Positions 50,126-63,891 of a stretch of 64,000 bases of DNA are shown here, in pieces. Source of the stretch: Candidatus Gallimonas merdae (lineage in GTDB: Bacteria > Bacillota > Clostridia > Christensenellales > Borkfalkiaceae); the NCBI GenBank assembly GCA_904419525.1, contig CAJFRT010000002.1:62001-126000 (forward strand). Direction: 5' to 3'. Both the position numbers and the translations under genes were made by a program. The stretch's first letter is position 1, and each line of letters opens with the position of its first letter. The notes beneath the pieces are model-generated. The model saw nothing but the letters and a program-made list of their open reading frames with translations, was not told the origin of the DNA and ran no database searches.

Positions 50126-51073
50126 ATGGACAGAACGATCATTGAACGCCTGACGAAACTCACGCAGGAAGAGCGCGAGATCTTACGAGGCGGACAGGTG
50201 GAACAAGGCGACTATTCGGCGACCGACCGCTTTATCGTCAACAGCGCCAAACTCCTGGACGGGAAAGAGCTCGATCTGCGGCCGCATACCCGCTTTGTCG
50301 ACTTCCCGGAGCACGGACATGACTACATGGAATTCATGTACGTCTACTCCGGCAGCATTTCGCACGTCATCGGAAAGGAGACGATCACGCTCGAACAGGG
50401 CGATATCCTCTTTCTCAACCGGCACGTGCGGCACTCCGTCAGGCGCGCGGAACAGGCGGACGTCGGCATCAACTTTATTCTTTCCAACCCCTTTTTGCAG
50501 GTCGTCTTTCACAGCGTACAGAACAATCCCGTGATGAGCGAATTCCTGATCAACAACTTTGACGAAGCCGGCGAAGGCGAATACCTCTTCTTTCACACCC
50601 GCGACAACTTTCCGATCCGCAACCTGATGGACAACCTGATCTATGCCGTCGTCAACCGCTCGCACGAAGTCTATGCGGGGCTCGTCTCGCTGCTCTTTTC
50701 CTATCTCGCCTATTACCGCGACACGCTCGCAAACGCCCTGCGCGTCACTTCGCCGGAGGCAAACCTCCGCCGCGCCGTACTCGGCTATCTGGAACAGCAC
50801 TATCCGAACGCGACCCTTGCAGAACTTGCGCAGACGCTGGGCTATACGCCGGCCTATCTGTCCCGCAGGATCCGCACGGTATGCGGAAAGACCTTTCAAT
50901 GTCTGCTGCAGGACGAGCGCATGAAAGCGGCGGAAAAACTTCTGCGCACGACCTCGCTCGGCACCGAGGAGATCATACGCGCGGTCGGCTATGAAAATCA
51001 GAGCCACTTCTACCGCGTCTTTTTCAAAACGTTCGGCACGACCCCGCACAAATACAGAAAAAACGCCGACTGA
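50126..51073 (+). CDS. AraC-family regulator of rhamnose genes (RhaS/RhaR-like)
   Basis: A 315-residue activator divergent from rhaBAD. The N-terminal cupin contains FPEHGHDYMEFMYVYSGS and GDILFLNRHVRHSVRR; the C-terminal AraC domain has NATLAELAQTLGYTPAYLSR and GTEEIIRAVGYENQSHFYRVF. By position it should sense rhamnose and activate the operon. The start ATG lies 6 nt after the -10 box and has no ribosome site, implying a leaderless mRNA. The stop codon lies in the loop of the terminator. Confidence 0.9.
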   Translation: MDRTIIERLTKLTQEEREILRGGQVEQGDYSATDRFIVNSAKLLDGKELDLRPHTRFVDFPEHGHDYMEFMYVYSGSISHVIGKETITLEQGDILFLNRHVRHSVRRAEQADVGINFILSNPFLQVVFHSVQNNPVMSEFLINNFDEAGEGEYLFFHTRDNFPIRNLMDNLIYAVVNRSHEVYAGLVSLLFSYLAYYRDTLANALRVTSPEANLRRAVLGYLEQHYPNATLAELAQTLGYTPAYLSRRIRTVCGKTFQCLLQDERMKAAEKLLRTTSLGTEEIIRAVGYENQSHFYRVFFKTFGTTPHKYRKNAD

Positions 51074-51138: not shown

Positions 51139-51630
51139 TCAGCAATACGATGCGAGCAGATCGTAGAGCGTTGTATAGTATTCGCCGAGATACTGCCGTG
51201 CGAGCGTATCCATGGCATATGCCTGCAGACGCGCGTCGGGGTCGTCCGTTGCCTGCATGTAATAGTTGCGCACGACCAGGAACCGCTGCGACGGCGAAAG
51301 ATTGTAATTGGGGTTTTCAGGATAGCGATAGGGTCCGTTTTCGTCCCCTTCCGAGCCGAGCGCCTCGTATGCGAGCTGATACAGAAGGTCCTCTTTCACG
51401 ACTTCGATCTGCGCTTCGGCTTCGCTGTCGATGCGTTCCCGCGCGTACTGCATGACGGAGGACCGCGCAAAATGATTGGAAATGAGCTGATTCTGCAGCC
51501 GGTCCTTTTCTTCCGCGGCATCGGCAAGGATCTCGTTCTTCTTCCCCTGCGCGACGCGCACCATGGCGAGCTGTACGGGAGAGAGGTCGGCGTATTCCGG
51601 ATCGGTGAGGTCGATGATGTCGATGGTCAT
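51139..51630 (-). CDS. Unrecognised protein at the 3' end of the phage head cassette
   Basis: A 163-residue, mostly helical, acidic soluble protein (EEKDRLQNQLISNHFARSSV, then LSPSQRFLVVRNYYMQAT). I do not recognise a family. Its start overlaps the preceding gene's stop by 4 bases, so it belongs to the same transcript and is probably a virion or assembly component. In short-tailed phages this position can hold ejection or tail-hub proteins; that is only analogy. Confidence 0.75.
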   Translation of the reverse strand: MTIDIIDLTDPEYADLSPVQLAMVRVAQGKKNEILADAAEEKDRLQNQLISNHFARSSVMQYARERIDSEAEAQIEVVKEDLLYQLAYEALGSEGDENGPYRYPENPNYNLSPSQRFLVVRNYYMQATDDPDARLQAYAMDTLARQYLGEYYTTLYDLLASYC

Positions 51631-52910
51631 ACCCGTCCCTCCCGCCTTATGCGAAGCGCTATTTCCCGCACGCAGATTTCCTCATCGTCCGAAGAAATGC
51701 GCACCGTCACGGTCTCGCCGCGGACGCCCGCGGCAAGATCCAGCCAGCCGCCCGCCTCTCCCTTGCACGCCCGGCGCACGCCGTCCGGACCGAACGCCTC
51801 GACGCGCACGCTGCCCGCACCCGAAAGATATACGGCCTCCAGCCGTTTCTCTCCGTCGCCCAGCGCCGAGAGCGAAAATTCCGCCGCGCACGAACAGCTC
51901 CCGCCCTCGGGCAGCGCCCGCCCCGTCAGCCTGTAAGCCTTGCCCGCGCGCATGAAGACGACGGAATCCGCCGCAGAAAACTGCACGAAGGCACGGCGGA
52001 CAAACCTGCCGCGCCCGAATGCAGGCTCGTAGAGATAGAGCGCCGCCGAACCGTCCGTCAGCGTGACGGACGCCGCAAGCGCCGTCCCCCACGCCCGTTC
52101 CACGCGCATGGGCTGCGTCAGGTCGATCTCGCCGTCGTCCGCCCCCTCCGCACGCCCGGCGGACGAACCGTCAAAGCGACAGAGCCCGCTCTCCGTAAAA
52201 AAGTAGGCGCAGTCGCCGATCACGGCCGCATGGCTGACGATCTTCCCCATGCCGAACGGCACATCGTCCAGTTTGAAGTTATAGACATCGGCATATCCCG
52301 TCAGGCGGGTGATCCCGCACTGCCGCAGAAAATACACCCTGTCGCGCATGGCGATCACGTCCACCACGGCCCCGCCCGCGGGCAGAAGGTCGCATCTGCC
52401 CGCGCCTTGCTCGCTGAAGGTCTTCCAGCTCTCGAACTTCATCGGCGCGGTGTAGCGGATCTGCGTGCCCGAGGCGCCGAACAGCCGTTCATGATGGAGC
52501 ACGAGATTGGTCACCGAAGGAGCGGGCGAAAACACCGTCGCCGTGGAGTCGCTGTTCTCATAGCGGTACAGCAGCCCGGCACACAGTGCAAAGATCCCGT
52601 CCCCGCCCTCCGTTTCAGGCAGGTTGACCATGCGCAGCACCTCCTCGCTTGCGGGATAGACGCGCCCGTCCGAAAGCCTTCTGACGGACTGTGCCGTCGC
52701 ATCGTAGACAAAGATGCGATCGTCGATGCACCACAGATTCGTCGCCGTGGCGGCGAGCGTCGCAGCCTCCTCTTCCCCCTCCGCACAGACGAGGACGCCG
52801 CCCTGTTCCCGCAGATGATCGAGGCGGACGGAGCGCACATAACCCTGACCCGCGTGCAGATCTGAGGCGTTGCAGTGCACGATATGGCGCGAACAGGACG
52901 GAACGCTCAT
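51627..52910 (-). CDS. Phage head-closure/stabilisation-like beta-propeller protein
   Basis: A 427-residue all-beta protein reminiscent of the P22 gp10 packaged-DNA stabilisation type. It has repeating blades such as TNLWCIDDRIFVYDATAQSV, LLYRYENSDSTATVF, FLRQCGITRLTGYADVYNF and AYFFTESGLCRFDGSSAG. The start is ATG 52910 after AAGGAGGT; an in-frame ATG at 52928 has no support. Between the adaptor gene (4-base overlap) and the last gene (4-base overlap). Assignment rests on gene order and repeat pattern. Confidence 0.65.
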   Translation of the reverse strand: MSVPSCSRHIVHCNASDLHAGQGYVRSVRLDHLREQGGVLVCAEGEEEAATLAATATNLWCIDDRIFVYDATAQSVRRLSDGRVYPASEEVLRMVNLPETEGGDGIFALCAGLLYRYENSDSTATVFSPAPSVTNLVLHHERLFGASGTQIRYTAPMKFESWKTFSEQGAGRCDLLPAGGAVVDVIAMRDRVYFLRQCGITRLTGYADVYNFKLDDVPFGMGKIVSHAAVIGDCAYFFTESGLCRFDGSSAGRAEGADDGEIDLTQPMRVERAWGTALAASVTLTDGSAALYLYEPAFGRGRFVRRAFVQFSAADSVVFMRAGKAYRLTGRALPEGGSCSCAAEFSLSALGDGEKRLEAVYLSGAGSVRVEAFGPDGVRRACKGEAGGWLDLAAGVRGETVTVRISSDDEEICVREIALRIRREGRV

Positions 52911-53476
52911 ACCCACCTCCTTGCGCACAGCGAAAGTTTTCTGCGCTCCAGGCCGGCCGCGCGCAGCGCCGCATGAAATTTTTCATCGAACACGGCGGCT
53001 TCGGCATACCGCCCGCCCGAAAGCAGGTACTCCCCCGCAACGCCGTAGGAGAGGAGCCGCGCGGATATTTTTTCGGAAAACGCCGTCTCGTCGGCGATCC
53101 CCGCCCGCGGCGGCGCATACGAATAGGTCACGCGGACTTCGCCCGTGCCGCGCGGAAGAACAAGGCGGGCGGGATACACCGTAAAGGGAACGCGCGCACC
53201 CGAGCCGTCACGCACCTCGAGGATATCGACGGGCGCGCGCGAAAACTCCGTAAAGAGCACCGCGTCCCCCTTCGGCGCAAACGTCTGCGTCTCCTTCAGG
53301 GGGAAATGATCGAGCGCCACTTCGTTTTCCGTCAGGTGATAGCACCGCAGAAGGGTGGCTGTCTCCCCTTCGGGCGCCGTTCCGGGCGGCGCCGCACAGG
53401 CGGCCTCGATCCCGGGCACGAGATCCGCCCGTCCCAGTTCCTCCGCCGCAAGAATGAGCACGTCTTTGATGAGCAT
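52907..53476 (-). CDS. Phage head-tail adaptor-like protein
   Basis: A 189-residue protein in the position where short-tailed phages encode the head-to-tail adaptor, directly after the capsid gene. It begins MLIKDVLILAAEELGR and later has RLLSYGVAGEYLLSGGRYAEA, similar in pattern to gp6/gp4-like connectors (helical start, beta centre, helical end). No catalytic motif is visible. Assigned by context and general shape. Confidence 0.65.
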   Translation of the reverse strand: MLIKDVLILAAEELGRADLVPGIEAACAAPPGTAPEGETATLLRCYHLTENEVALDHFPLKETQTFAPKGDAVLFTEFSRAPVDILEVRDGSGARVPFTVYPARLVLPRGTGEVRVTYSYAPPRAGIADETAFSEKISARLLSYGVAGEYLLSGGRYAEAAVFDEKFHAALRAAGLERRKLSLCARRWV

Positions 53477-53491
53477 ACCGCCCTCCTTTGA

Positions 53492-54646
53492 TTATTTTTC
53501 CGTGATCCCCGTCAGCACCGCCTGTCCGCAGGGCCGGCTGCACATCAGTTCGGCATACTTGACAAGGGTCGCCGTGTAGACGGGCTTGCCCGGCACCTGT
53601 GCGAGGATCCTGCCGTTTTCGCCCTCCAGCCACTGCCAGTCGCAGAGCTGATGCAGGCGGAAATCGTCGGTGTTGAGCAGATACATCGTCCCGTCCGGGC
53701 AGAACCTGTCCGCAACGACGGGGATCCCGTTGAACGTGATCGCCTTTGCGCCGCCCGCAAGTTCCACGGAATCCACCTGGCGATAGCCCGAAAGCACCTC
53801 GTAGAGCGCACGCCGGACGCCCCAGGAGCAGACAATGAAGTTGATCTTGCTGCCCGCATTCTCCTCCACGAGGTCGATGGCCTTCTGCACGGCATTCTCC
53901 GTGAGCGTGCCGACGGTGGACACCTTGACGGGATTGAGCCAGGGATTGTCCGCGCGCTTGAGGCCGTAGAGCTCGGTGGAATCGGAGAAGATCGCGCCGA
54001 GGCCGGTGATCTCCAGATTGCGCGAGTTCTGCATGTAAATACTTCCGCCGACCGCATCGAGCTGCGCCGTCCCCGTGAGGGTGATCTGCTTTTTGGAGTA
54101 GTTCACGCCCGTCACGGTATGCCCCGCGGACACGAGCGCGTCCTCATCGTCGTACAGATCGACGATCATGCCGACGGCAAAATTCTTCACGCTGTCCAGC
54201 GTATAGGTATTCCCCGAGACAGTGCCCACCTTTCCGAGCCTGCCCGTCCCGTCGCCGAAGAGCATTCTGCCGAAGTTGAACGACGAACTGCGCAGGAGCT
54301 GTTCCATCTCGGTGTTCAGCAGGTCGATGAACGCGCCCTCGTCGTTGCGGGAAGCGCGCACCGCCTTGTCGGTGATCTCGATCCTGCCGTAAAGATTTTT
54401 CAGCGTGGAGACGAGCTGCGCGTAGCCGCCGCCCGCAGTTGCCGGAAGAGAGCCCTCCTCCGTGCCCGCGCCGACGCCGCCGTGCACGCCGTACACCGCC
54501 GCCTTTCTGACGTCCTTGCCCCAGACGTCCGACGTCGTCTGTTCGATCGCGGCGAGAAAGGGATTCGCCGCCTTGTTGAGCTGTTCCGCGACAGCATCAA
54601 GGTAATAAGAGCGCAGAACGCTGTCTGCCGAAGCCGTTGTAACCAT
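53492..54646 (-). CDS. Phage major capsid protein
   Basis: A 384-residue protein read as an HK97-fold coat protein. The N-terminus contains ANPFLAAIEQTTSDVWGKDV; later LYGRIEITDKAVRASRNDEG and the E-loop/P-domain-like stretches lead to NFIVCSWGVRRALYEVLSGY and AITFNGIPVVADRFCPDGTM, which recur in coat proteins of clostridial phages. Ends near ATLVKYAEL. GGGAGG stands before ATG 54646. Located after the scaffold gene, as expected. Confidence 0.85.
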   Translation of the reverse strand: MVTTASADSVLRSYYLDAVAEQLNKAANPFLAAIEQTTSDVWGKDVRKAAVYGVHGGVGAGTEEGSLPATAGGGYAQLVSTLKNLYGRIEITDKAVRASRNDEGAFIDLLNTEMEQLLRSSSFNFGRMLFGDGTGRLGKVGTVSGNTYTLDSVKNFAVGMIVDLYDDEDALVSAGHTVTGVNYSKKQITLTGTAQLDAVGGSIYMQNSRNLEITGLGAIFSDSTELYGLKRADNPWLNPVKVSTVGTLTENAVQKAIDLVEENAGSKINFIVCSWGVRRALYEVLSGYRQVDSVELAGGAKAITFNGIPVVADRFCPDGTMYLLNTDDFRLHQLCDWQWLEGENGRILAQVPGKPVYTATLVKYAELMCSRPCGQAVLTGITEK

Positions 54647-54649
54647 AAA

Positions 54650-55072
54650 TTAACCTCCCTGTTTCCGATGTTTGAGATAGCCGAGCGCCAGCGCGCCGGC
54701 CTGTCTGAATGTTGTCGCTTTCTGTGCAGGCGCGGTGATCCCCGCGCCCGAACCCGCCAGAAGGGGCACGCCGCCCAGCGACGCAAGGTATTCCCCCACA
54801 ATGCGCGCACGCACCTCTTCGTTCCCTCTGACGGCGCGGAGCAGCGCCTCGTCCGGCAGCTCCTCCGTCTGAGCGCGCGTCTCCCCCGCGTTCCCGCCCT
54901 GCGGCGCGGCGGCTTCAAGAGCGCGCAGGCGTTGACTGCGACGGGTAAATTCCGCCTCCAGCTCCTGATATGCGCGCATGAGGGCGTCCACACTCTGAAA
55001 TTTTCCGAGATCGGGCGTCCGTTCCTGAGGCGCCTGTCCGGGGTTTTCCGTTCCGTTCTCCTCTTCCGTCAT
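54650..55072 (-). CDS. Phage scaffolding-like protein
   Basis: A 140-residue charged protein between portal and capsid genes: acidic, Gln-rich N-terminus, coiled-coil-prone VDALMRAYQELEAEFTRRSQ and a basic C-terminus GYLKHRKQGG. This composition and position are typical of capsid scaffolds. The start overlaps the portal stop by 4 bases; it ends 3 bp before the capsid ATG. Confidence 0.7.
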   Translation of the reverse strand: MTEEENGTENPGQAPQERTPDLGKFQSVDALMRAYQELEAEFTRRSQRLRALEAAAPQGGNAGETRAQTEELPDEALLRAVRGNEEVRARIVGEYLASLGGVPLLAGSGAGITAPAQKATTFRQAGALALGYLKHRKQGG

Positions 55073-56922
55073 ACACTTCCTCCTTTTTCGCGGTGCGAAG
55101 CAAGATGGCGCAGGATCCGCCCGCGCACCGCCTCATTTTGTTCCCCGCCCGAGAGCAGGGCCCTGACGTGTTCGGCGCGGTGCAGCGCATGATCGTCGTA
55201 CTCGTCCGCCTCCACGTCCCGCTGCGCCAGCACGAGATTTTCCCGCTCCGCCTTCTTCAGGTGCAGATGCGAAATATCCCGCGCGTTCTCGAACGAACCG
55301 TAGCCGAGCGCTTCCAGCACGCGGTTGCGCGTATCGTCCGAAAAGCTGCCGTCCGCATTGCGCAGGAGCCCCAGCGAAAGCAGGGACAGAATGTCCTCCT
55401 TCCTCTGCTCCGGCGTCCGCTCGAATCCCGCTTCAAATTCAACGTCGTCCGCCGAAATATCGCTCTGCGAAAATGCAAACAGCTCGGTATCCCCGCCCGT
55501 TCCCGTCATGCGCATGATGCGCCGCGCACCGGCGAACTGCTTGTAGAGATGCAGAATGTGTTTTCCCGCCTCCCTGACCGCCCGTTCGATGCTCTCCGCG
55601 CTCATCTGCATGCGGTTGGTGTCCTGGTCGAGAAGAAGCTGCAATCCCGTGGCCGACGTGACGTGCGTCGGATTCGCCGAATTGCGCGAGATCTCGCTCA
55701 TGCCCGAGACGAGAATGAACTCGTCCGAGAGCCGCTCTTCCTCCTTCCCGAACTCCGACGGCACGCTGCCGCAGTCGAGGAAGCCCGGCTTCTCCGAACC
55801 CCTGCGGTAGACGAGCACTTTCCCGGGATACAGCCCGTCCTCCGCAAGTTCTTCGGCGTCCACCGAGCCGTCCTCGACGGCAATGACGCCCGTCGAGAGC
55901 CGGTTGAGAAATTCGTGCTTGCGGTTTCTGACCGCATTGTACGCCCGCTGCAGGGGGATCATTCTGTCGACGACGCTCGTTCCGAAAAACGCCCCCGCCA
56001 GCGCGATGCACGTCTGCCGCACAAAGGGCAGCGTGCGCTCGCCCCGATCCCCGTTGCGGTAGGGAAGCTCTCCCTCGTACAACAGTTTGTCAGCCGCCAC
56101 GATCTCCAGCCGTCCGTTCGGATGCGTTCCGTCCGGACGGGTATACCGTTCAATGAGAATGACCGCGTCCTCAAGGGCAGGACGTTCGCTGCCGTCCGCC
56201 GGACGCTTCCATCCGCTTGCCGCACTGTAGGGAGCAAGCGGAAAATCGGTGATGCGGTGCCCCTGCATCTCCACGCCGAATTTGTCTTCGAGATAGGAGA
56301 CGGGCACCGCCTTCGCGTGAATGATGCTTCTGACGTCCTCCATGCGCTCCGCCGTGAGCGAATCGGGATAGATCTCGAACGGAGAGAGCGCTATAACGTT
56401 TACGTCCCCCTCCCGCACCGAGTGCCCCGCCTCGTCCGTGCCGATCACCTTGCCGTCCTCGTGATTCCAGACGATCTTGTAAAAGGCCGTCCCGCATGTC
56501 TCCGACCAGAGCGTCGCGCGCGAGATGACCGCGTCAAGGTCGATGCGGTTGGTCACCGAGCGCAGAATGTTCGAGCAGAGGCGCGCCGTCTTCATGTCCT
56601 CGTCCGAATCGGAAAAGGCGCGCACTTCCAGCGACGGCCGCACTTTGGCGAGCCGCGCGATCCGCGTATCCAGCGTGGGCGCAATGTGGTTGAAACAGCG
56701 CCGCGCCTGCCAGTAAAATGCCGCCGCCTCTTCCTCCAGTTCGCCCGCCGGATTGATGTCGCAGAACTGATTCCCGCTCACAAAATTCATATTGAGCTCC
56801 CAGCCGCGTTCCAGCATCCTGCGCACGTTCCGCCGCGCCTCAAAATCGGCGGCGATCTCCTCCACAAGCGCCTCGACGCGCCGCTTTTCCGCCCTTTCCC
56901 TGAGTTTTTCCCTCTCTGTCAT
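55069..56922 (-). CDS. Phage portal protein
   Basis: A 617-residue portal of the kind found in P22-like short-tailed phages: the dodecameric ring through which DNA enters and leaves the head. Segments include NMNFVSGNQFCDINPAG, APTLDTRIARLAKVRPSLEV, LSPFEIYPDSLTAERMEDVR, AGAFFGTSVVDRMIPLQRAY followed by NAVRNRKHEFLNRL, and a Gln/Arg-rich C-terminal barrel. No frameshift or premature stop is visible. Overlaps both neighbours by 4 bases. Confidence 0.88.
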   Translation of the reverse strand: MTEREKLRERAEKRRVEALVEEIAADFEARRNVRRMLERGWELNMNFVSGNQFCDINPAGELEEEAAAFYWQARRCFNHIAPTLDTRIARLAKVRPSLEVRAFSDSDEDMKTARLCSNILRSVTNRIDLDAVISRATLWSETCGTAFYKIVWNHEDGKVIGTDEAGHSVREGDVNVIALSPFEIYPDSLTAERMEDVRSIIHAKAVPVSYLEDKFGVEMQGHRITDFPLAPYSAASGWKRPADGSERPALEDAVILIERYTRPDGTHPNGRLEIVAADKLLYEGELPYRNGDRGERTLPFVRQTCIALAGAFFGTSVVDRMIPLQRAYNAVRNRKHEFLNRLSTGVIAVEDGSVDAEELAEDGLYPGKVLVYRRGSEKPGFLDCGSVPSEFGKEEERLSDEFILVSGMSEISRNSANPTHVTSATGLQLLLDQDTNRMQMSAESIERAVREAGKHILHLYKQFAGARRIMRMTGTGGDTELFAFSQSDISADDVEFEAGFERTPEQRKEDILSLLSLGLLRNADGSFSDDTRNRVLEALGYGSFENARDISHLHLKKAERENLVLAQRDVEADEYDDHALHRAEHVRALLSGGEQNEAVRGRILRHLASHREKGGSV

Positions 56923-57194
56923 TGCAATTTCTCCTTGTTTTCTTCTCCGAGCGCGCGAATGAGTTTTGCGCGCTCCGCCTCCAGCTCCTCGTCCGAGAGC
57001 GCCGAATAATCCGCCCCCTCCAGAAGCAGTTTCGCCGCTTTGAGATCGGGCGGAATGTCCTTGTGCGTCTCCCGCCGCTTTACAAGTTTCAGCTCGCCGT
57101 CCCTGGCGTCGTATTCCTCCGTCACCTCCTCCACCCGGAAGCCGAGCGCCACTTTCAGCACCGCGTCCCTTACTTTATCGTCCTGAATCGCCAT
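56919..57194 (-). CDS. Small protein between terminase and portal genes
   Basis: A 91-residue charged protein (VKRRETHKDIPPDLKAAKLL, then LSDEELEAERAKLIRALGEE). Similar short proteins lie beside terminase genes in Firmicutes phages and may assist packaging, but I cannot name the family. The start is uncertain: ATG 57194 has GGGAGG 21 nt upstream, while GTG 57215 lies against it. Ends 4 bases inside the portal gene. Confidence 0.65.
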   Translation of the reverse strand: MAIQDDKVRDAVLKVALGFRVEEVTEEYDARDGELKLVKRRETHKDIPPDLKAAKLLLEGADYSALSDEELEAERAKLIRALGEENKEKLQ

Positions 57195-57263
57195 ACCATG
57201 TCCGAACGGACACACCTCCCATATCGCATGAATTTCTACTGAACGCAGACATGGTGCCTGCCT

Positions 57264-58712
57264 TTACTGTCTGCGCGCCCGGCGGGAACGAAGCAACACG
57301 CGGATCCGGCGCTCCTTGTCCCTTGCAACGGCGCTCGGCAAAAGTTCCTTCTCCGCCGGCGACGGACGGCTCATCAGAAAATACCGCAGCTCGTCCATTG
57401 CATGATCGTCGCGCTTGACGGGCGCATCGCCGCTCCCCCAGAAATAGCTCTTGAATTCGCGGATCATATTCGTGCAGCCCGAAAAAATGTACAGATCGGG
57501 CAGACCGTTTTCGCGGTTCAGATAGCTTTTGACCCGCTCGATCCCCGAAAACAGATCTTTCTCCACCCGCATATCGGCAAGGATCCCGCGCTCGCAGAAC
57601 AGTTCCGCAACCGATTTTTCGGCGGCGAGCGTGCGCTGGGACGCGGCGGAGTCGATGAGCGCTTCCACCCGTCCCCTTGCGTCCCGCTTCCAGCCGAGTT
57701 TCGCGCTGACGTCCAGAATGGCGCGGGCATGAAAGTCGATGTCCTTCCCCGCCGCGTAGTGTTCCGCGACGACATAGACGTTCCCGTCCCAGTCAACGGC
57801 ATACCAGTGCGCCGAGAGCGGGTTTTTCAGTCCGGGGTCGATCGCGATCCCCGCCTGCCATGCAGGGGGCAAGGAAAAGGGTTCGATCACATGCACCCGT
57901 TCGTCAAATTCGGGATAGACCAGCCCTTCCCGCGCGGCGAACCTGCCGTAGCGGCGGGATTCCAGCGTGGAGGCGTCCATCGAGGAAGAAAGAAGGGCGA
58001 TCTCCTTTGGGGAAAGATAGGGATTGTCCGCCCACTCCATGAACTCATACCAGACCTCCGGATTCCCTCCGCGGTTGAGGTAGATCTCCTCATAGACGAA
58101 CGTCAGCCCCTTCAGGGGGGTCATCGTCCCGAAGATATCCCCCTCCCTGTCGAGAACACGCATGAGGCACTCTTCATAGATGTCGCGCGGCGGTTCCTCG
58201 TCGAACCAGACAAAGTCCAGCGAACTCCCCTGAAAGCGCTCCCTGCCCTGATCGCAGCTCTTGAACCCGATGACGCTCGTTCCGCCGAATACGTTTCTGA
58301 CGACGATCTGATCGACGATCCCTGCCGCGGGATTGTCCTTTCTGCCGCTCACCATCACGATGTCCGCGATCCAGTCGGGCCGCAGATAATACAGGACCTT
58401 TTTCTGCGCGACGTCGCGCTGCACCTGCATGGTGGGAGAGACGACCCAGCCGAACACATTTTTCCTGTTCTTCCGGTACGGATGATTGCCGCGCGCGATC
58501 CAGACCGCTTCCGCCGCGCCGCACTCCGTCTTGCCCGAACGGTTGCCTCCGAACACCCAGCGGTTGCGCTTTCTGCACTTGTGGAAGGCAAGCTGTTTTT
58601 TGTGCTTCTTTCTGCCCGTATTGTACTTTGCAAGCCTGTCCGAAGCGCGCCGGCGGGCAAGTTCCTGTTCCACCGCACGCAGTTTTACCGATAATTCGCT
58701 TTCATTCGTCAA
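57264..58712 (-). CDS. Phage terminase large subunit
   Basis: A 482-residue DNA-packaging motor with nuclease. ATPase motifs: Walker A GGNRSGKTE (about residue 55) and Walker B FVWFDEEPPRD; coupling motif FGTMTPLKGLTFVYEE. RNase H-like nuclease acids are seen in GIAIDPGLKNPL, EALIDSAASQRT and DDHAMDELRYFL, so both activities look intact. The start is TTG 58712 with a GA-rich ribosome site (GGAGGGGGAGAG); the nearby ATG is out of frame and stops at once. Confidence 0.92.
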   Translation of the reverse strand: MTNESELSVKLRAVEQELARRRASDRLAKYNTGRKKHKKQLAFHKCRKRNRWVFGGNRSGKTECGAAEAVWIARGNHPYRKNRKNVFGWVVSPTMQVQRDVAQKKVLYYLRPDWIADIVMVSGRKDNPAAGIVDQIVVRNVFGGTSVIGFKSCDQGRERFQGSSLDFVWFDEEPPRDIYEECLMRVLDREGDIFGTMTPLKGLTFVYEEIYLNRGGNPEVWYEFMEWADNPYLSPKEIALLSSSMDASTLESRRYGRFAAREGLVYPEFDERVHVIEPFSLPPAWQAGIAIDPGLKNPLSAHWYAVDWDGNVYVVAEHYAAGKDIDFHARAILDVSAKLGWKRDARGRVEALIDSAASQRTLAAEKSVAELFCERGILADMRVEKDLFSGIERVKSYLNRENGLPDLYIFSGCTNMIREFKSYFWGSGDAPVKRDDHAMDELRYFLMSRPSPAEKELLPSAVARDKERRIRVLLRSRRARRQ

Positions 58713-58756
58713 AACTCTCCCCCTCCCGCCCGCGCAAACGCGGTACGATAGCGCGT

Positions 58757-59434
58757 ATGAAACGATCGATCTTTCTTTTCATTCTTTTTCTGACAACAGT
58801 CCTGATCCCCGCCCCCCGCACCGCGGCTTCCGCCGCGGACGACGGCACGTATGCTGTGGCCACGGGGGAAGTATGGTTCTATGCGGCAGCAGACGAGGAA
58901 GAAAAACTCTTTCTCCTGCCCGAGACCTACTATGTGCGCGTCCTCGATGCGGGCGGGACGTTCTGCACCGTCGAATATCTGACGGACGACGCCCCCTACC
59001 GCAAACTGCTCGGATACTGCAGGACAGACGCCCTCATCTTTGTGGACTTTGTCCCTGCGCGCCCCTATCTGCGCAAGCAGATCACCGTAACGTACACCCT
59101 GCCCGATTCGGGCAGCTTGGGCTCGGACGAATTCACAAAATTCGAGCGCACGTTCGTCTATTACGGTGACCGCTACGACGGCGGTCAGCTCTATCTGTAC
59201 GTCCTCTCCGGCGACACCTTCGGCTATATCCCCGCCGACGCGCCGCCCGAATTCGAGCGCAACGACGACTATCTCTCCTCCGTCTCCGGCGAAACAGGCG
59301 ATCCCTCCGCAGAGGGACCCCCCGCAAACGCCGTGCAGATCGTCGTCATCGTGTTGGCCTGCGTCGCGGCGGTCGCCGTCGCCGTCATTTTGCTGCGCGG
59401 CAAAAAGCCTCCGCGCGAGCAGCAGGAATTCTGA
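58757..59434 (+). CDS. Exported SH3-like protein with C-terminal membrane anchor
   Basis: A 225-residue plus-strand gene inside the otherwise minus-strand phage cassette. Signal peptide MKRSIFLFILFLTTVLIPAP, two strand-rich modules (TFCTVEYLTDDAPYRKLLGY recalls bacterial SH3 or SH3-like folds), then a TM helix (VQIVVIVLACVAAVAVAVIL) and a short basic tail. No phage family is recognised. The same plan (signal, SH3-like module, C-terminal TM, basic tail) occurs in the large protein at 60219. No ribosome site; TACGAT lies 7 nt before the ATG. Confidence 0.75.
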   Translation: MKRSIFLFILFLTTVLIPAPRTAASAADDGTYAVATGEVWFYAAADEEEKLFLLPETYYVRVLDAGGTFCTVEYLTDDAPYRKLLGYCRTDALIFVDFVPARPYLRKQITVTYTLPDSGSLGSDEFTKFERTFVYYGDRYDGGQLYLYVLSGDTFGYIPADAPPEFERNDDYLSSVSGETGDPSAEGPPANAVQIVVIVLACVAAVAVAVILLRGKKPPREQQEF

Positions 59435-59943
59435 CGCCCCGAAAAGGCAAGGCCGCATTGTTCCCTGCGCGCCGCCACAGCGCTCTCCCGCCCGTCCCGG
59501 ATCGCCCGCAGGATCCGCGCAAAAAGAGAATAGCCCGCAAAAGCCGCAAAATAAGCCTCTTCCGTCCAGCCGCATGCCGCAAAACAACATGCGGCCTTTT
59601 TGAGCAGCGCGCTCTGCCTGCGAAAATAAGTGCGCTCCGAACAGGGCACCACATAGCCGCCGAAGGCACCGAGCCTGCGCCTGCGGCGGAAATAGCGGTA
59701 CTCCAGTAAGAACAGCTCCTCCCGCGAGCACTGTGCAAGCAGCTCCTCCACCGCCTTTTCCAGCCGCAAAAGCCGGGAACGCACGGCGAGTTCTTCCGCA
59801 ATGCGCTCCGCCTCCTCCAATGCGCCGAGCCGGGAGCGGAAGGACAAAAGCGCCTTGTTTTCCGCTGCGACGGCGGACGCTTCCGCAAGCGCATGCAGAT
59901 GCGGATAGGCGTACAGAATCACCTTTGCGTAATCGTATGCCAA
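59269..59943 (-). CDS. Phage-type regulator with sigma-like HTH (ArpU-like?), overlapping tail
   Basis: A 224-residue protein at the head of the phage cassette. A leucine-rich helical region is followed by CSREELFLLEYRYFRRRRRL and SERTYFRRQSALLKKAA, the two helices of a sigma-region-4/ArpU-like HTH seen in late-gene activators. The start is TTG 59943 with GGGGAGGG 4 nt upstream, better than ATG 59991. The last 55 or so codons are antisense to the end of the plus-strand gene and have low-complexity composition, so the original stop may have been lost. Confidence 0.55.
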   Translation of the reverse strand: MAYDYAKVILYAYPHLHALAEASAVAAENKALLSFRSRLGALEEAERIAEELAVRSRLLRLEKAVEELLAQCSREELFLLEYRYFRRRRRLGAFGGYVVPCSERTYFRRQSALLKKAACCFAACGWTEEAYFAAFAGYSLFARILRAIRDGRESAVAARREQCGLAFSGRQNSCCSRGGFLPRSKMTATATAATQANTMTTICTAFAGGPSAEGSPVSPETEER

Positions 59944-60218
59944 GTTTCCCTCCCCTCTCGTCCGCCGATGCGGCGAACGAAATACGAACATTTGTTTGCC
60001 TTTTTATCTTAGCATTGATTGTTGCCAGACGCCTGCCTGTATGCCAAAAAAATTCAAGAAAATCCGGAAAATTTTTGGCCGTTCGGAAAGACTTTCCCGC
60101 AAAACCCGCATGCCGCCCGAAATACAGCGGACTTTCGGGGAGCCGCCCCGTCTGCCGTCCTGAAAATTTTTCCGGCGAAAGAATTGTAATTTCTGCGCGC
60201 GCGTGTTATAATGGGTAC
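59944..60218. other. Intergenic region between phage cassette and exported protein
   Basis: 275 bases, AT-rich near 60000-60070. The promoter of the plus-strand gene is at 60184. No convincing promoter for the minus-strand cassette was found here. Confidence 0.5.
60184..60212 (+). promoter_or_regulatory. Promoter of the large exported protein
   Basis: TTGTAA (60184-60189), 17 nt, TATAAT (60207-60212), then 6 nt to ATG 60219; no Shine-Dalgarno sequence. Confidence 0.8.
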
Positions 60219-62768
60219 ATGACGATACGAAAGAGTGCGGGCGCCGCGCTCGCCGCCCTGTTTGTGTTCGGGGCGGTGTGCACCGCGATCCCGCAGATGA
60301 CAACCGACGTTTTCGCCGCCGGACCGGAGCAGACTTCACAACCCGCCGTTCTTACGACCGGGAATGCTTCCCTGTTCCTGCCCGAAAGCTATGAACAGTA
60401 TCTTGCGCTCGAAAATCCGGCCGACGCTGCCTTTTCAGAACGGTATATCGCGGTTGCGGACGGCAGCACGCTCTATCTGTATCAGCGGGAAAACGGCGCC
60501 TATACCTCCTATACGGCAAGTGCGACCATCACCAAGATCCAGTTCGCGGGCGACCGCCTGTATTTCACCGTGCGCGGCACTTCCAACTCGTTCTGGTACT
60601 ACGACTGCATAGAAAACACGGCGCAGCAGGTCGGCTCGCTCAACTGTTCCACCTTCCTCATCGTGGACGATGCGCTCTATACCGCCGTCATCGCGGGCAG
60701 CCAGATGACGCTCGCGCGGCGCTCTCTCGACGAACTCGACGGCGAAGGCACTTCGCTCGGAACGCTCTCCACCGGCACGGAGCCCTGGCTCGCCTGGGCG
60801 AACGATACCCTTTACTGCATCGTCGGCGGTACCATCTACCGCCCGAGCAACGGCATGTTCGACGACAGGAACGGGTACTATATCGGCGATTTTGAACAGA
60901 GCTCCGGGATCTCCTCCGTCTGCTCGGACGGCACCTTGCTCTACTTCTCCTCCTCCGCGGGATTTTTCCGCAGAGAGACTGCCATCGACGCCAAGCCCGT
61001 CCTCCTTTCGTCCGACGATCAGCTCTGCGGCGTGACGGCGCTCACCTGCGAGGGCGGAACGCTCTACTGCATATCGGGCTCGTCCGTTCATACGATTTCG
61101 CTGGCGGACGGTTCCGCAGCCTTCACCGACTACGAGATCGCCTCTGCGTCCGACTCCGTCAACCGCATTTCGGAGGCTTCCGACACGGCCCGCGCAGGCG
61201 ATCTGCTGGTCACGGCAGACACGGGCAATTCCCGCGTGAGCGTCTTCAATTTTTCCACGGACAGCTATACGGTGATCGGCTGTGCCGCCGCGCCCTCCCT
61301 TGTCGCCACGGACGGCGAAATCATTGCTTACGCCGCAGGCGCACAGGTCTACACCTGCGATTATGCGGCGGGCGAACGGGAATTCACTGCGGCGGAGCTC
61401 TCCGGCGTGGACATTGCCGGCCTTGCCGTGCTCTACGGCGAGACATACTACGTCAAGACGAACGGGACGCGCGGCGTCGTGGGCGGAGCTTCGACCGAAA
61501 TGGGCAGCGCGACCCCGACCGGGCTCACCTGTGACCTGTACGGAAATCTCTACGTCTCCTTTGCAAGCGGCAATGCACGCCGTTTCACCGAAGAAGAGTT
61601 CGTTCAGAGCGGCACGGGAACGGACACCGGCATCGCCGTCGCCGCGGACGCGACCTCCCTCAGGGCCGACTTCGAGGGCAACCTCTACTATCTTTCGGCC
61701 GGCGCGTTATACTGCAACGGCGAATTGTTTGCCTCTGTCGACGGCGGCGACTTCGTCTACATGCAAAGCGACGCCGTTCCCGTCTCCTTCGCGCTCGGGT
61801 TCGAGGACGATTCCGTCTATTTCAATTTCGGAAATTACATGATCGCAAGCAATGCCAGCACCGAAGAACAGCCAGGCCCCCTTGCGGGCATTCCGACGCT
61901 CGGCGAGATCGCGGAGGACGGCGCAAGGGCGGCGACGTTTTCCCACCATTCGCAGACCGGACTGCTTGTAGACGTCGCGGCGCGCACCGTGGGCATCGAC
62001 ACCGACCTTGCCGAATTCAGATCCTCCGACAGCGCCTATTTTCCCTACCGCGGCTATGCACGCTCTGTGGAGGCGCGCCGTGGGCTTCTGCTTGCCTCCA
62101 CCTCGGAGGAAGCGGGCGGCTATTCCCTGGTACTCTTCCCGGAAGAGGACGGCTCCTATACGGCGCGCCTCTACCGATCGGAAGCGCTCACCCCGGCGGA
62201 AGAGACCTTCCGCGAAGAACCGTCCGTGCGCTGGCTCACCAATGAAGTGGGCGCCTACTATGCGCCCTGTCTCGATGCCTCGCTCTCGGCCGAGACCCTT
62301 GCGCGCGGGACGCAGGTCACCGTGATCGGCTATTTTACCGCGCCCGACCGCGCGTATGCGCTCGTGGAATATGAGGGAGGAACGCAGAAAAACACGGCGC
62401 AGGGCTGGATCCCCTCGGCGTATCTTTCCGCGGTTTCCCCCGATCTGTCCGCCGGGGACGACTATACGCTTGCCTATCTCAAAGCGGATCGGGACGGCAT
62501 CATCTTCACCGCGGCGGACGGCTCCGAAAAGACGGTGACCGAGCGCGTGCAGGTGCGCCTGTATGACAACGGCGACGGCACCTATACCGCAAGGCTCTTT
62601 GACGATCCCGCATACAGCGCAACCGTCACGGAAGACATGCTGGACAAGGACAATTCAGAAGTGCTGCGCATTGCGCTCATCGTCATTCTGTCCGTACTGG
62701 CGCTCGTCATCATCGGCGTGTATATCTTCCTGCTTCCATGGGAAAAATACCGGAAAAAACGCATATAA
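60219..62768 (+). CDS. Large exported propeller-like protein with SH3-like module and membrane anchor
   Basis: An 849-residue protein, function unknown. Signal peptide (about residues 1-34). Residues 40-600 contain repeating blade-like units (YIAVADGSTLYLYQRENG, AGDRLYFTVRGTSNSFWYYD, NDTLYCIVGGTIYR) typical of beta-propellers. Near 690-760 an SH3-like region (YALVEYEGGTQKNTAQGWIP) follows, then a strand-rich region and one TM helix (about 815-840, ALIVILSVLALVIIGVYIFL) with a basic cytoplasmic tail. It would be displayed outside the cell on a C-terminal anchor. The start at 60219 is set by the promoter and signal peptide; the open frame upstream is not used. Confidence 0.82.
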   Translation: MTIRKSAGAALAALFVFGAVCTAIPQMTTDVFAAGPEQTSQPAVLTTGNASLFLPESYEQYLALENPADAAFSERYIAVADGSTLYLYQRENGAYTSYTASATITKIQFAGDRLYFTVRGTSNSFWYYDCIENTAQQVGSLNCSTFLIVDDALYTAVIAGSQMTLARRSLDELDGEGTSLGTLSTGTEPWLAWANDTLYCIVGGTIYRPSNGMFDDRNGYYIGDFEQSSGISSVCSDGTLLYFSSSAGFFRRETAIDAKPVLLSSDDQLCGVTALTCEGGTLYCISGSSVHTISLADGSAAFTDYEIASASDSVNRISEASDTARAGDLLVTADTGNSRVSVFNFSTDSYTVIGCAAAPSLVATDGEIIAYAAGAQVYTCDYAAGEREFTAAELSGVDIAGLAVLYGETYYVKTNGTRGVVGGASTEMGSATPTGLTCDLYGNLYVSFASGNARRFTEEEFVQSGTGTDTGIAVAADATSLRADFEGNLYYLSAGALYCNGELFASVDGGDFVYMQSDAVPVSFALGFEDDSVYFNFGNYMIASNASTEEQPGPLAGIPTLGEIAEDGARAATFSHHSQTGLLVDVAARTVGIDTDLAEFRSSDSAYFPYRGYARSVEARRGLLLASTSEEAGGYSLVLFPEEDGSYTARLYRSEALTPAEETFREEPSVRWLTNEVGAYYAPCLDASLSAETLARGTQVTVIGYFTAPDRAYALVEYEGGTQKNTAQGWIPSAYLSAVSPDLSAGDDYTLAYLKADRDGIIFTAADGSEKTVTERVQVRLYDNGDGTYTARLFDDPAYSATVTEDMLDKDNSEVLRIALIVILSVLALVIIGVYIFLLPWEKYRKKRI

Positions 62769-62845: not shown

Positions 62846-62874
62846 ATCAAAAACAATTGTTGAGGAATGAATGT

Positions 62875-63891
62875 ATGGCAACCTACCTCTCTCCCCTTGC
62901 GCCCCAGCGCGCAGACCCCTATCTGTACAAGCACAACGGCAAGTACTACTTTACGGCGACCTGCCCGCTGTATGACAGGCTTGAGATCCGCTGTGCGGAC
63001 ACCGTGAACGCGGTCGCCTCCGCTCCCGCGCGCGTCGTCTGGAAGAAGCACGAGACCGGAGCGCTCGCTTCGCACATCTGGGCGCCCGAACTCCACTACA
63101 TCATGGGGAAATGGGTCATTTACTTTGCCGCGGGACATCAGCCCGACGTCTGGGATATCCGCCCCTATGCGCTCGTCTGCAAGGGAGACGACCCCATGAA
63201 AGACGACTGGGGCGATGCCGTTCCCATGCAGGCCGCGGACGGCGATCCCTACCCCTTCACCGATTTCTCCCTGGACATGACCGTATTTGAAAATCAGGGA
63301 AGATGGTATGCGATCTGGGCGCAGAAGTTCGGCTGCCAGCGGGCTCCGACTCCCATTTCCGATCTGCTCATCGCCGAACTGGAGACCCCCACAAAGCTCA
63401 GGACGGTCTTTGTGCGGCTCACCTCCCCCGACTACGACTGGGAGCGCGACGGCGGATTCTGGGTCAACGAAGGCCCCGCCGTCCTGCAGGGACCGGAGAC
63501 GAAGGGAAAGATCTACATGACCTACTCCGCTTCGGCGACGGGCGCCTGCTACTGTATGGGCATGCTGTCTGCCGATGCAGACGCCGATCTGCTCGATCCC
63601 CGCAGCTGGACCAAGGAGAGATACCCCGTTCTCAAGACGGACGAATCCCTGAAAGTCTACGGCCCCGGGCACAACTGCTTTGTGCGCGGCGACGAAGACG
63701 AGGTCCTCACCCTGCTGCACTTCCGCGACTATGAAAAGATCGTCGGTGACCCGCTGGACGACCACAACCGCCACGCGCACGTCATGAAGGTGCAGTTCGA
63801 CAAAAACGGACGCCCCCTGTTCCGGCTCGATGCCGCACAGCTCTACAACACGCCCTACGAAAACGAGAAACAAAAAGGCATCAACGATTAA
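62875..63891 (+). CDS. Glycoside hydrolase family 43 protein
   Basis: A 338-residue five-bladed-propeller glycosidase without signal peptide, so acting inside the cell on imported oligosaccharides; arabinofuranosidase or xylosidase activity is typical of the family. The catalytic triad is plausible: Asp in QRADPYLYKHNGKYYF, Asp in FSLDMTVFENQGRWY and Glu in WVNEGPAVLQGP. HIWAPELHYIMGKWVIYF is characteristic. The start is ATG 62875 after GAGG; an in-frame ATG 18 bases upstream lacks a site. Fits with the GH127 enzyme as arabinoside users. Confidence 0.88.
   Translation: MATYLSPLAPQRADPYLYKHNGKYYFTATCPLYDRLEIRCADTVNAVASAPARVVWKKHETGALASHIWAPELHYIMGKWVIYFAAGHQPDVWDIRPYALVCKGDDPMKDDWGDAVPMQAADGDPYPFTDFSLDMTVFENQGRWYAIWAQKFGCQRAPTPISDLLIAELETPTKLRTVFVRLTSPDYDWERDGGFWVNEGPAVLQGPETKGKIYMTYSASATGACYCMGMLSADADADLLDPRSWTKERYPVLKTDESLKVYGPGHNCFVRGDEDEVLTLLHFRDYEKIVGDPLDDHNRHAHVMKVQFDKNGRPLFRLDAAQLYNTPYENEKQKGIND

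Follow-up and report, generated by a model that had tools for sequence, protein, structure and literature searches.

A podovirus-type head-and-short-tail operon, probably of a gene transfer agent, inherited mainly vertically in an order of Clostridia

Gene content of the locus

The window, that is, the whole 64,000-nt stretch of DNA analysed here, contains a block of eight consecutive minus-strand genes (positions 51139-58712), all with open frames, and, beyond its terL end, a further minus-strand gene for a regulator (59269 to about 59940), in agreement with the initial annotation of about nine uninterrupted genes on this strand. The 4-base stop/start overlaps that it described were found at three of the seven junctions (51627-51630, 55069-55072 and 56919-56922); at the other four, the genes overlap by 22 bases (52907-52928) or are separated by 3, 15 or 48 bases. 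The GC content of the block, 0.595-0.641, lies in the upper part of the range of the window (0.476-0.641). The left boundary first proposed stands in part, with the rhamnose genes nearby and an AraC-type gene (50126-51073, plus strand) separating them from the block. The right boundary has to be moved, because the plus-strand exported-protein gene placed there, which sits between the regulator and terL, is, like the regulator, part of the conserved unit.

The large terminase, TerL (57264-58712, minus strand), matched Terminase_6N (48.9 bits), and its profile retrieved large-terminase chains among solved structures (best E 3.9e-07). The ATPase and nuclease residues seen in the initial reading are nearly invariant among aligned relatives, with the Walker A Lys present in 130 of 130 sequences, the Walker B Asp-Glu in 133 of 133 and the three putative nuclease Asp in 134/134, 132/134 and 134/134. 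Furthermore, in the dN/dS comparison that had been suggested for the terminase and capsid, terL was the most constrained gene (median 0.10) and the major capsid protein (MCP) gene had a median of 0.20, within a range of 0.10-0.42 across the block, where dS was near saturation in many pairs, the medians are given without a formal test, and the TerS value was set aside because a wrong ORF had been used for one genome (L031) or more. The low dN/dS and the nearly invariant active sites suggest that the packaging motor has been kept by selection.

The small terminase, TerS (56919-57215, minus strand), has no recognisable N-terminal DNA-binding domain. The window protein matched phrog_309 (30.4 bits, E 7.4e-07) over a fragment of the profile, positions 190-243 of 319, and no HTH family at E≤0.1. 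The TerS proteins of this cassette are short (83-128 aa in 53 sequences), and a profile of these 53 aligned weakly (14.0 bits) with residues 84-142 of a 182-aa TerS from outside the order, the HTH of which is at about 44-70 (HTH_23, 18.3 bits, below the cut-off). The frame is open for at least 60 residues upstream of the conserved part in 15 of 100 loci. Judging from these weak matches, the cassette TerS appears to lack a DNA-binding domain, a trait that, in the part of PMC6854486 drawn on here, is proposed to define the TerS of gene transfer agents (GTAs) and is described as the apparent state in RcGTA and other alphaproteobacterial GTAs.

The portal (55069-56922, minus strand) is of the P22/SU10 type (P22_portal, 68.7 bits; phrog_156), with 8jov as the sole match of its profile among solved structures (E 0.0016). 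The MCP (53492-54646, minus strand) is of the SU10/phrog_14242 type, matching phrog_14242 at 191.6 bits and SU10_MCP at 21.7 bits, just under the cut-off; against solved structures, the capsid profile gave E 0.00084 for a rhodanese-like chain, 0.0019 for a major head protein and 0.069 for a putative capsid protein. Thus, the terminase, portal and capsid assignments of the initial annotation hold. The genes at 54650-55072 and 52907-53476 (both minus strand) had no family match in family-model or PHROG scans and are assigned as putative scaffold and head-to-tail adaptor from position, the latter lying between capsid and nozzle; the adaptor profile matched tail tubular protein A at E 0.72 and an unrelated chain at E 0.24.

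The propeller protein already recognised in the block (433 aa; 51627-52928, minus strand) shares its fold with the podovirus tail nozzle (P22 gp10 / T7 gp12-like). Its profile had no match among solved structures, and the gene evolves fast (dN/dS 0.42). With a nozzle fold and a gene in the adaptor position, the block is not the isolated, tail-less head cassette that was first described. The last gene (51139-51630, minus strand) encodes a 163-aa protein with a predicted helical model (pLDDT 78.9), which matched DUF7934 under the cut-off in a direct search (E 0.039) and over 66 columns in a profile-profile comparison (probability 88.6, E 2.6e-06). As a larger DUF7934 form comes after the nozzle in other families, this is probably a shortened DUF7934 protein.

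The regulator gene, reg (59269-59940, minus strand; the true start is uncertain and the ORF runs to 59991), encodes a sigma-70 region-4-like/DUF1492-like protein. Of 17 aligned members, 5 matched Sigma70_r4_2 and 3 matched DUF1492; the window protein itself had no family match, and the reg profile matched one solved chain, at chance level. The divergent gene, exp (58757-59434, plus strand), starts 44 bases from the terL start and encodes an exported protein with SH3-like domain(s) and, as read by eye from alignments, a signal peptide and a C-terminal membrane anchor; SH3_3 was detected in 5 of 20 aligned members and not in the window protein.

Of 42 further ORFs picked from the window, 35 were scanned against PHROG, and 25 of the 26 matched families were viewed; none of these carries a structural, lysis or integration name, many being without a function name, in line with the initial statement that lysis genes are missing from the locus. 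Likewise, no replication or integration gene was recognised beside the structural cluster in the window ORF scan, and at loci of other families host-type genes, read by eye, lie beside the block.

Neither the window block nor the genome of the window (92.6% complete) yielded a lysis or receptor-binding gene, and the BhlA holin was found neither in this genome nor in any of 61 genomes of the family. Tail and lysis genes had been proposed for a search elsewhere in the genome: the tail nozzle lies inside the block itself, and the lysis match is a single weak one to phrog_297 (15.2 bits) in a host context without phage-like neighbours. PF25588 matched only at the place of the 163-aa protein (9.3 bits) and within an aminotransferase-like ORF (18.9 bits), judged to be due to chance. 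A second locus for tail fibre and lysis in this genome was therefore rejected. Across the order, BhlA was found in 92 of 297 genomes. Among the 74 of these with a portal among the matches listed, the two genes are on one contig in 66 and on different contigs in 8, and in all 66 one-contig cases BhlA is on the portal strand, 3.8-8.5 kb downstream. Since two genomes of family f4 have BhlA without a listed portal match, this holin may also occur independently of the cassette.

Distribution and inheritance

The search for the same block in related genomes, which the initial annotation had proposed, detected TerL in 146 of the 151 host-family genomes (17 of 18 genera), with gene order largely fixed and usually accompanied by the sigma-like regulator and divergent exp. 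There is one TerL match in 136 of these genomes and two in 10, and in at least five of the latter the two matches are fragments of a single gene; 13 matches in this search contain one or two internal stops. Among 81 source loci, 80 of which were chosen by TerL similarity, the eight-gene set is complete in 65 and cut by contig ends in the other 16, with the scaffold-position gene in 72, reg in 66 and exp in 80, each time in reverse orientation relative to the cassette. At 20 loci from across the order, reg is present in 12, in some weakly, and exp in 14, in one case (L147) at another place. Exp and reg thus belong to the conserved unit, as usual partners of the cassette.

In Christensenellales, which we take from the GTDB placement to be the order of this Candidatus Gallimonas-like Clostridia genome, 172 of 297 genomes from 17 family codes, representing 63 of 125 genera, have the portal, as do 147 of the 247 genomes of good quality; outside the order it was detected in only 14 genomes of a class draw of 391. 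A tree of portal, MCP and TerL from 21 genomes of 17 families shares 7 of 18 splits with the RpoB tree and recovers six of the seven RpoB splits with local support of at least 0.9, and the cassette and RpoB distances are correlated (Spearman 0.588, Mantel p 0.0005). Cassette presence is also clustered on the RpoB tree, requiring 8 changes against a shuffled mean of 14.6, with none of 500 shuffles as low. Agreement of the single genes with RpoB is moderate (Spearman 0.33 for portal, 0.50 for MCP and 0.38 for TerL), and the cassette-bearing families f13 and f33 fall outside the 24-genome core clade, which calls for some transfer or for repeated loss. At the locus representing f28 (L143), terS has no neighbouring terL, even though the sequence covers this region. 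Altogether, these comparisons point to a stable host locus with mainly vertical inheritance rather than a mobile prophage, and support the initial suggestion of an old insertion kept by selection.

A single-sequence portal scan of IMG/VR yielded no relative, and a portal profile scan yielded 48 loci, all with the cassette's own gene order, with exp and/or reg in 15 and a holin in 6. Given both results, an origin as a free virus was rejected; the cassette may account for a group of short contigs classed as viral but probably of bacterial origin. In a phage collection, 975 records had a TerL match, all below 60% identity, with the 20 listed at 28-31%.

Comparison with known particles

RcGTA-type GTAs are vertically inherited across a large clade, and RcGTA is siphovirus-like, whereas the present operon is of the P22/SU10 podovirus type in its portal and capsid families and in its nozzle fold. 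Podoviruses of this type and two phage-like loci of the class, L166 and L176, have homologous TerL, portal and capsid proteins, and the nozzle fold is that of P22 gp10; unlike the cassette, L166 has genes that, by eye, resemble replication and repressor genes, and its TerS, of the Terminase_2 family, is encoded upstream of TerL. Capsid-forming phage-inducible islands carry their own capsid and packaging genes. The cassette differs from these islands in its near-universal presence in the family and its own nozzle, and no integrase or replication gene was recognised in it.

The GTA of Faecalibacterium, FpGTA, also from gut Clostridia, is encoded, according to the portions of its description available to us (Borodovich et al. 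2026; PMC12946183), in one ten-gene operon of TerS, TerL, portal, scaffold, capsid and short-tail-type proteins, with no replication genes and a TerS without an obvious DNA-binding domain, and has ~40-nm capsids with 8.4-8.9 kb of packaged host DNA. In the same text, TerS is upstream of TerL, whereas here TerL precedes TerS, and a second operon encodes baseplate, fibre, RBP, holin and endolysin (PMC12946183), whereas here the main operon carries holins in other families, and the family of the window yielded none. Unlike FpGTA, the cassette is, furthermore, order-wide and has a sigma-like regulator and, in divergent orientation, an SH3/membrane protein as partners; the likeness described here between the two is one of gene content.

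DNA packaging and alternative explanations

The block is real and intact, and it is not a decaying prophage. In our view, it probably encodes the head and short tail of a podovirus-type GTA, mainly vertically inherited in the order and recognised here from its genes, and would descend from an ancient phage domesticated by Clostridia as a DNA-packaging particle. Among the three roles first offered, that of a GTA-like DNA packager is well supported, because the block is nearly universal in the family, its phylogeny is host-like, dN/dS is low, the TerL sites are intact, no DNA-binding domain is recognisable in TerS, and other families have holins in the operon. A sub-population of cells would switch the operon on via the regulator, and capsids would assemble on portal and scaffold and fill with host DNA without sequence preference, as such a TerS could not recognise a pac site. 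The cells would then lyse, through holins in many lineages and by another route in the family of the window, and the particle would pass its DNA on to kin by way of its short tail.

Alternatively, a GTA-derived particle could package host DNA and mainly kill kin or competitors, as PBSX does, or provision DNA after lysis instead of transducing. This is unlikely, although the same genes would be conserved, neither the window block nor its genome yielded a receptor-binding protein, and the FpGTA authors leave the point open for FpGTA (PMC12946183). The nozzle and the nearly invariant packaging motor have been kept, and a killing device has no obvious need for a pac-blind TerS.

The other two roles first offered fare worse. 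A satellite or capsid-forming island borrowing tails, lysis or replication from helper phages would fit a window in which no tail-fibre, lysis or replication gene was recognised, but is very improbable for a syntenic locus in 146 of 151 family genomes that tracks the host tree, has its own nozzle and, in other families, same-operon holins, and beside which no integrase gene was seen. Slimmer still are the chances of a protein shell repurposed for a non-DNA, encapsulin-like use: the head genes are isolated from phage replication genes, but terminase residues nearly invariant in 134 sequences, terL as the most constrained gene and the tail nozzle fit this badly. We would give equally little credence to an ordinary prophage, or to what is left of some prophage family widespread among these hosts, since, despite the homologous TerL, portal and MCP of L166 and L176, the portals of these loci score 480 and 434 bits against the portal profile versus 686-862 bits in 20 order loci, L166 has replication-like genes, the cassette tree tracks RpoB, all 48 IMG/VR relatives have the cassette order, most frames are intact, no integrase or replication gene was recognised among the window ORFs scanned, and the distribution is not sporadic.

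If the block does encode a GTA, capsid-borne gene exchange would be intrinsic to a considerable share of the gut flora, as 17 family codes of one Clostridia order carry the operon and many of these families are known from gut metagenomes. GTAs with known genes are few, mainly in Alphaproteobacteria and Brachyspira, with PBSX and FpGTA in Gram-positives, and GTA-like packaging has been reported in Christensenellaceae genera, as stated in parts of PMC12946183; the cassette is a candidate source of the latter. The losses across the order provide a natural series for testing the use of the particle.

Frameshifts in relatives had been named as a sign of decay, and damaged copies do exist: frames are split in G081 and G096, G051 has either a deletion or a misassembly, and terL is interrupted in five relatives, but these are exceptions among 146 genomes. 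As the compared junctions show, the five (L291, L292, L293, L295 and L296) carry foreign sequence at one terL site, after about codon 279, which corresponds to 57875-57876 in the window, where the gene is intact. Some mobile elements seem to be specialised in jumping into the gene of the DNA-packaging motor and, if confirmed, a terL-targeting insert would be evidence that they experience the particle as a threat. Islands are known to insert into comM, switching off natural transformation. A bolder and quite tentative scenario is that an order-wide podovirus-type GTA, domesticated before the families diverged, spreads or exchanges chromosomal DNA so effectively that mobile elements have evolved precise insertion into terL, carrying defence genes and switching transfer off as the islands in comM do. 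Interruption of terL by a defence-carrying insert was seen once among the five.

Gene layout, conservation and selection

The block is transcribed from the minus strand in the order reg (a small, sigma-like HTH regulator; 59269 to ~59940), terL (large terminase; 58712-57264), terS (small terminase), portal, a gene in the scaffold position, capsid, a gene in the adaptor position, nozzle (tail nozzle) and the gene of a 163-aa protein, the last of the block, which ends at 51139. Between reg and terL lies exp (58757-59434, plus strand), whose product is exported, contains SH3-like domains and has a membrane anchor at its C-terminus; the starts of exp and terL are 44 bases apart on opposite strands. 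To judge from its divergent placement and surface topology, the exp protein may be a receptor, block adsorption or time lysis. On the flank, a gene for an exported, beta-propeller-like membrane protein (59733-62768) accompanies the block in 72 of 81 family sources and the adjoining enzyme gene (62857-63891) in 38 of 81, contig ends not being allowed for in either count.

All eight genes were found in 65 of these 81 sources (80 named-collection loci and the window), the remaining 16 being truncated by contig ends. Because the 80 loci were picked by TerL similarity, the unbiased family-wide figure is the TerL match in 146 of 151 genomes and 17 of 18 genera, with identities of 61-90% for full-length matches among the rows listed, the window's own aside. 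Ten of the 146 carry two TerL matches, and five genomes (G012, G028, G034, G062, G091) gave no match. Exp is present in 80 and reg in 66 of the 81 sources; among the 15 without reg, 14 form one divergent subgroup and one begins at terL. In G051, terL stops near codon 312 and is followed by nozzle-like and DUF7934-like sequence (L301:5983-8507), reflecting either a deletion of the middle of the operon or a misassembly. G081 and G096, members of one genus, both have a terL that breaks into two overlapping frames around codons 125-140 (L299:2543-3936, L300:1437-2857), through a shared frameshift, recoding or sequencing error.

Across 20 representatives of the order, under 17 family codes, we recognised portal in 20, capsid in 19, nozzle in 18, terL in 17, exp in 14 and reg in 12; three loci (L146, L154, L155) are truncated by contig ends, some exp and reg matches are weak, and exp of L147 sits at another place. 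L143 has no terL next to terS, although its contig covers the region. A protein of ~112 aa lies between capsid and adaptor in 16 of the 20 loci, and a DUF7934-type protein follows nozzle in 15, of which the 163-aa protein of the window is, judging by sequence, probably a reduced form. A BhlA-type holin occurs in 10 loci and a second holin-like protein in 8 (7 under a stricter rule; in L160 within a longer ORF), with BhlA and Phage_holin_1 passing the Pfam cut-offs in L143 and L158. BhlA was detected in 92 of 297 order genomes and in none of 61 genomes of the window's family. Where a portal coordinate is listed (74 genomes), the two genes share a contig in 66, always on the same strand and with BhlA downstream at a distance of 3.8-8.5 kb (median 5.7 kb); they lie on different contigs in 8; the other 18 BhlA genomes, two of f4 among them, have no listed portal row.

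Within a set of ten close relatives that includes the window, pairwise dN/dS had a median of 0.10 for TerL, 0.165 for portal, 0.18 for the 163-aa protein, 0.20 for capsid, 0.24 for adaptor, 0.29 for reg, 0.32 for exp, 0.35 for scaffold and 0.42 for nozzle (pairs with dS<1.5 only, median dS ~0.6-1.1; medians without formal test). In 134 aligned TerLs (the 81 family sources plus order, IMG/VR and outside loci, the last >300 bits), Walker A is invariant save one Ser position (130 sequences with letters), the Walker B Asp-Glu is present in 133 of 133, and the three putative nuclease Asp residues in 134, 132 and 134 of 134.

Distribution and descent

GTDB places the host in Borkfalkiaceae/Christensenellales; NCBI taxonomy lists Gallimonas as Clostridia incertae sedis. 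Named relatives, among the best 80 of 295, include Candidatus Gallimonas and Candidatus Coproplasma. The portal profile matched 172 of 297 order genomes at E<=1e-10, under 17 family codes (f1 to f33 occur among the rows listed for the order), including 147 of 247 good-quality genomes and 63 of 125 genera. In 391 genomes drawn across the class, order members among them, 27 matched at E<=1e-20, 14 of these outside the order with lower scores. In one genus outside the order, a lone portal gene (555-582 bits) was seen with no other head genes recognised (L163:9040-10884, L164:9016-10884, L165:8988-10859), that of L163 adjoining genes resembling spoIIIA sporulation genes; in a different family, another portal gene (L167:8980-10926) lies amid host-like genes, other head genes again not being recognised.

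For 21 genomes of the order, from 17 family codes, the joint cassette tree and the RpoB tree have 7 of 18 splits in common, including a nine-genome group (f3, f6, f8, f10, f14, f16, f24), f1+f29 and, unrooted, f13+f33. Of the 7 RpoB splits whose local support is >=0.9, the cassette tree contains 6. Cassette and RpoB distances are correlated (Spearman 0.588; Mantel p 0.0005, none of 2000 shuffles better), agreement being lower for the single genes portal (0.33, p 0.021), capsid (0.50, p 0.0025) and TerL (0.38, p 0.014). When 18 order genomes listed as lacking a portal match were added to the RpoB tree, cassette presence required 8 changes versus 14.6 on average after shuffling (none of 500 shuffles as low), and one clade with full support has the cassette in 19 of its 24 genomes. 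One genome added as portal-negative (G173) carries a BhlA holin, so that some absences, at least, may be assembly gaps. Since f13 and f33 fall outside this clade, either the cassette is older and was lost in places, or it has undergone some transfer.

All 48 IMG/VR 'viral' contigs matching the portal profile (L207-L254) show the gene order of the cassette, with exp and/or reg in 15 and holin in 6; thus, viral databases probably hold the cassette as short false viruses. One of these contigs, L221, has a tandem pair of capsid-like ORFs (L221:3690 and L221:4886).

Relation to described agents and proposed mechanism

The closest match that we found among described systems is FpGTA, the gene transfer agent (GTA) of Faecalibacterium (PMC12946183). 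Compared by description rather than sequence, the cassette resembles it in the genes present, the type of TerS and the short-tail character, whereas the order of the genes differs. The same paper attributes 3 of 25 events of GTA-like packaging to Christensenellaceae genera, and its sections 9, 10 and 26 name no operon for these (PMC12946183). Among the matches listed from open-licence PMC literature on GTAs of Clostridia/Bacillota/Christensenellales or Borkfalkiaceae phages, none describes this operon.

We consider a vertically inherited, podovirus-type GTA quite likely. The reg sequence follows the pattern known from late regulators of phages, with sigma-70 region 4 or DUF1492 in some members, from which we infer a switch that would turn on the operon in a few cells. 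Portal and scaffold would then form the base for capsid assembly, TerL/TerS would feed in host DNA with no preferred start site, adaptor and nozzle would close the head, and lysis would free the particle.

Foreign inserts in terL

In five family genomes (G123, G075, G145, G053, G007), terL is interrupted at about codon 279 (L291:4636, L292:54, L293:253, L295:57, L296:4557-12797) by inserts that begin with one common end sequence. A search for this end across 201 family genomes returned only G123, G145, G007 and G053, with one threshold match in G004, the G075 stretch being too short for the search. The three inserts that are long enough, two of them identical in sequence, contain a 16-base repeat in three copies at nearly fixed spacing (3 sites each at <=3 mismatches versus 0-0.015 expected in base-shuffled controls). 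The G123 and G145 inserts share 252 bases at 100% identity, though the species differ, and a second G145 contig spans the terL site uninterrupted.

Genes for a type II C5 methyltransferase, a Thoeris system (ThsA macro and two ThsB TIR) and a Cro/C1-type regulator lie in the G007 insert (L296); of its seven scanned ORFs, two matched nothing and none was recognised as a transposase. The far side of the insert lies in the capsid gene; the end of terL, terS, portal and scaffold are missing there, the operon being absent as far as the end of the capsid gene, and the portal profile has no match in the G007 genome. Islands in comM disable transformation, and the terL inserts resemble these. The analogy suggests, as a hypothesis, that the elements gain by silencing the particle. 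Elsewhere in the window's own genome, contig C7 has, close to its end, two large ORFs that look recombinase-like by eye (L258:12908-16304) and presumably belong to some other mobile element.
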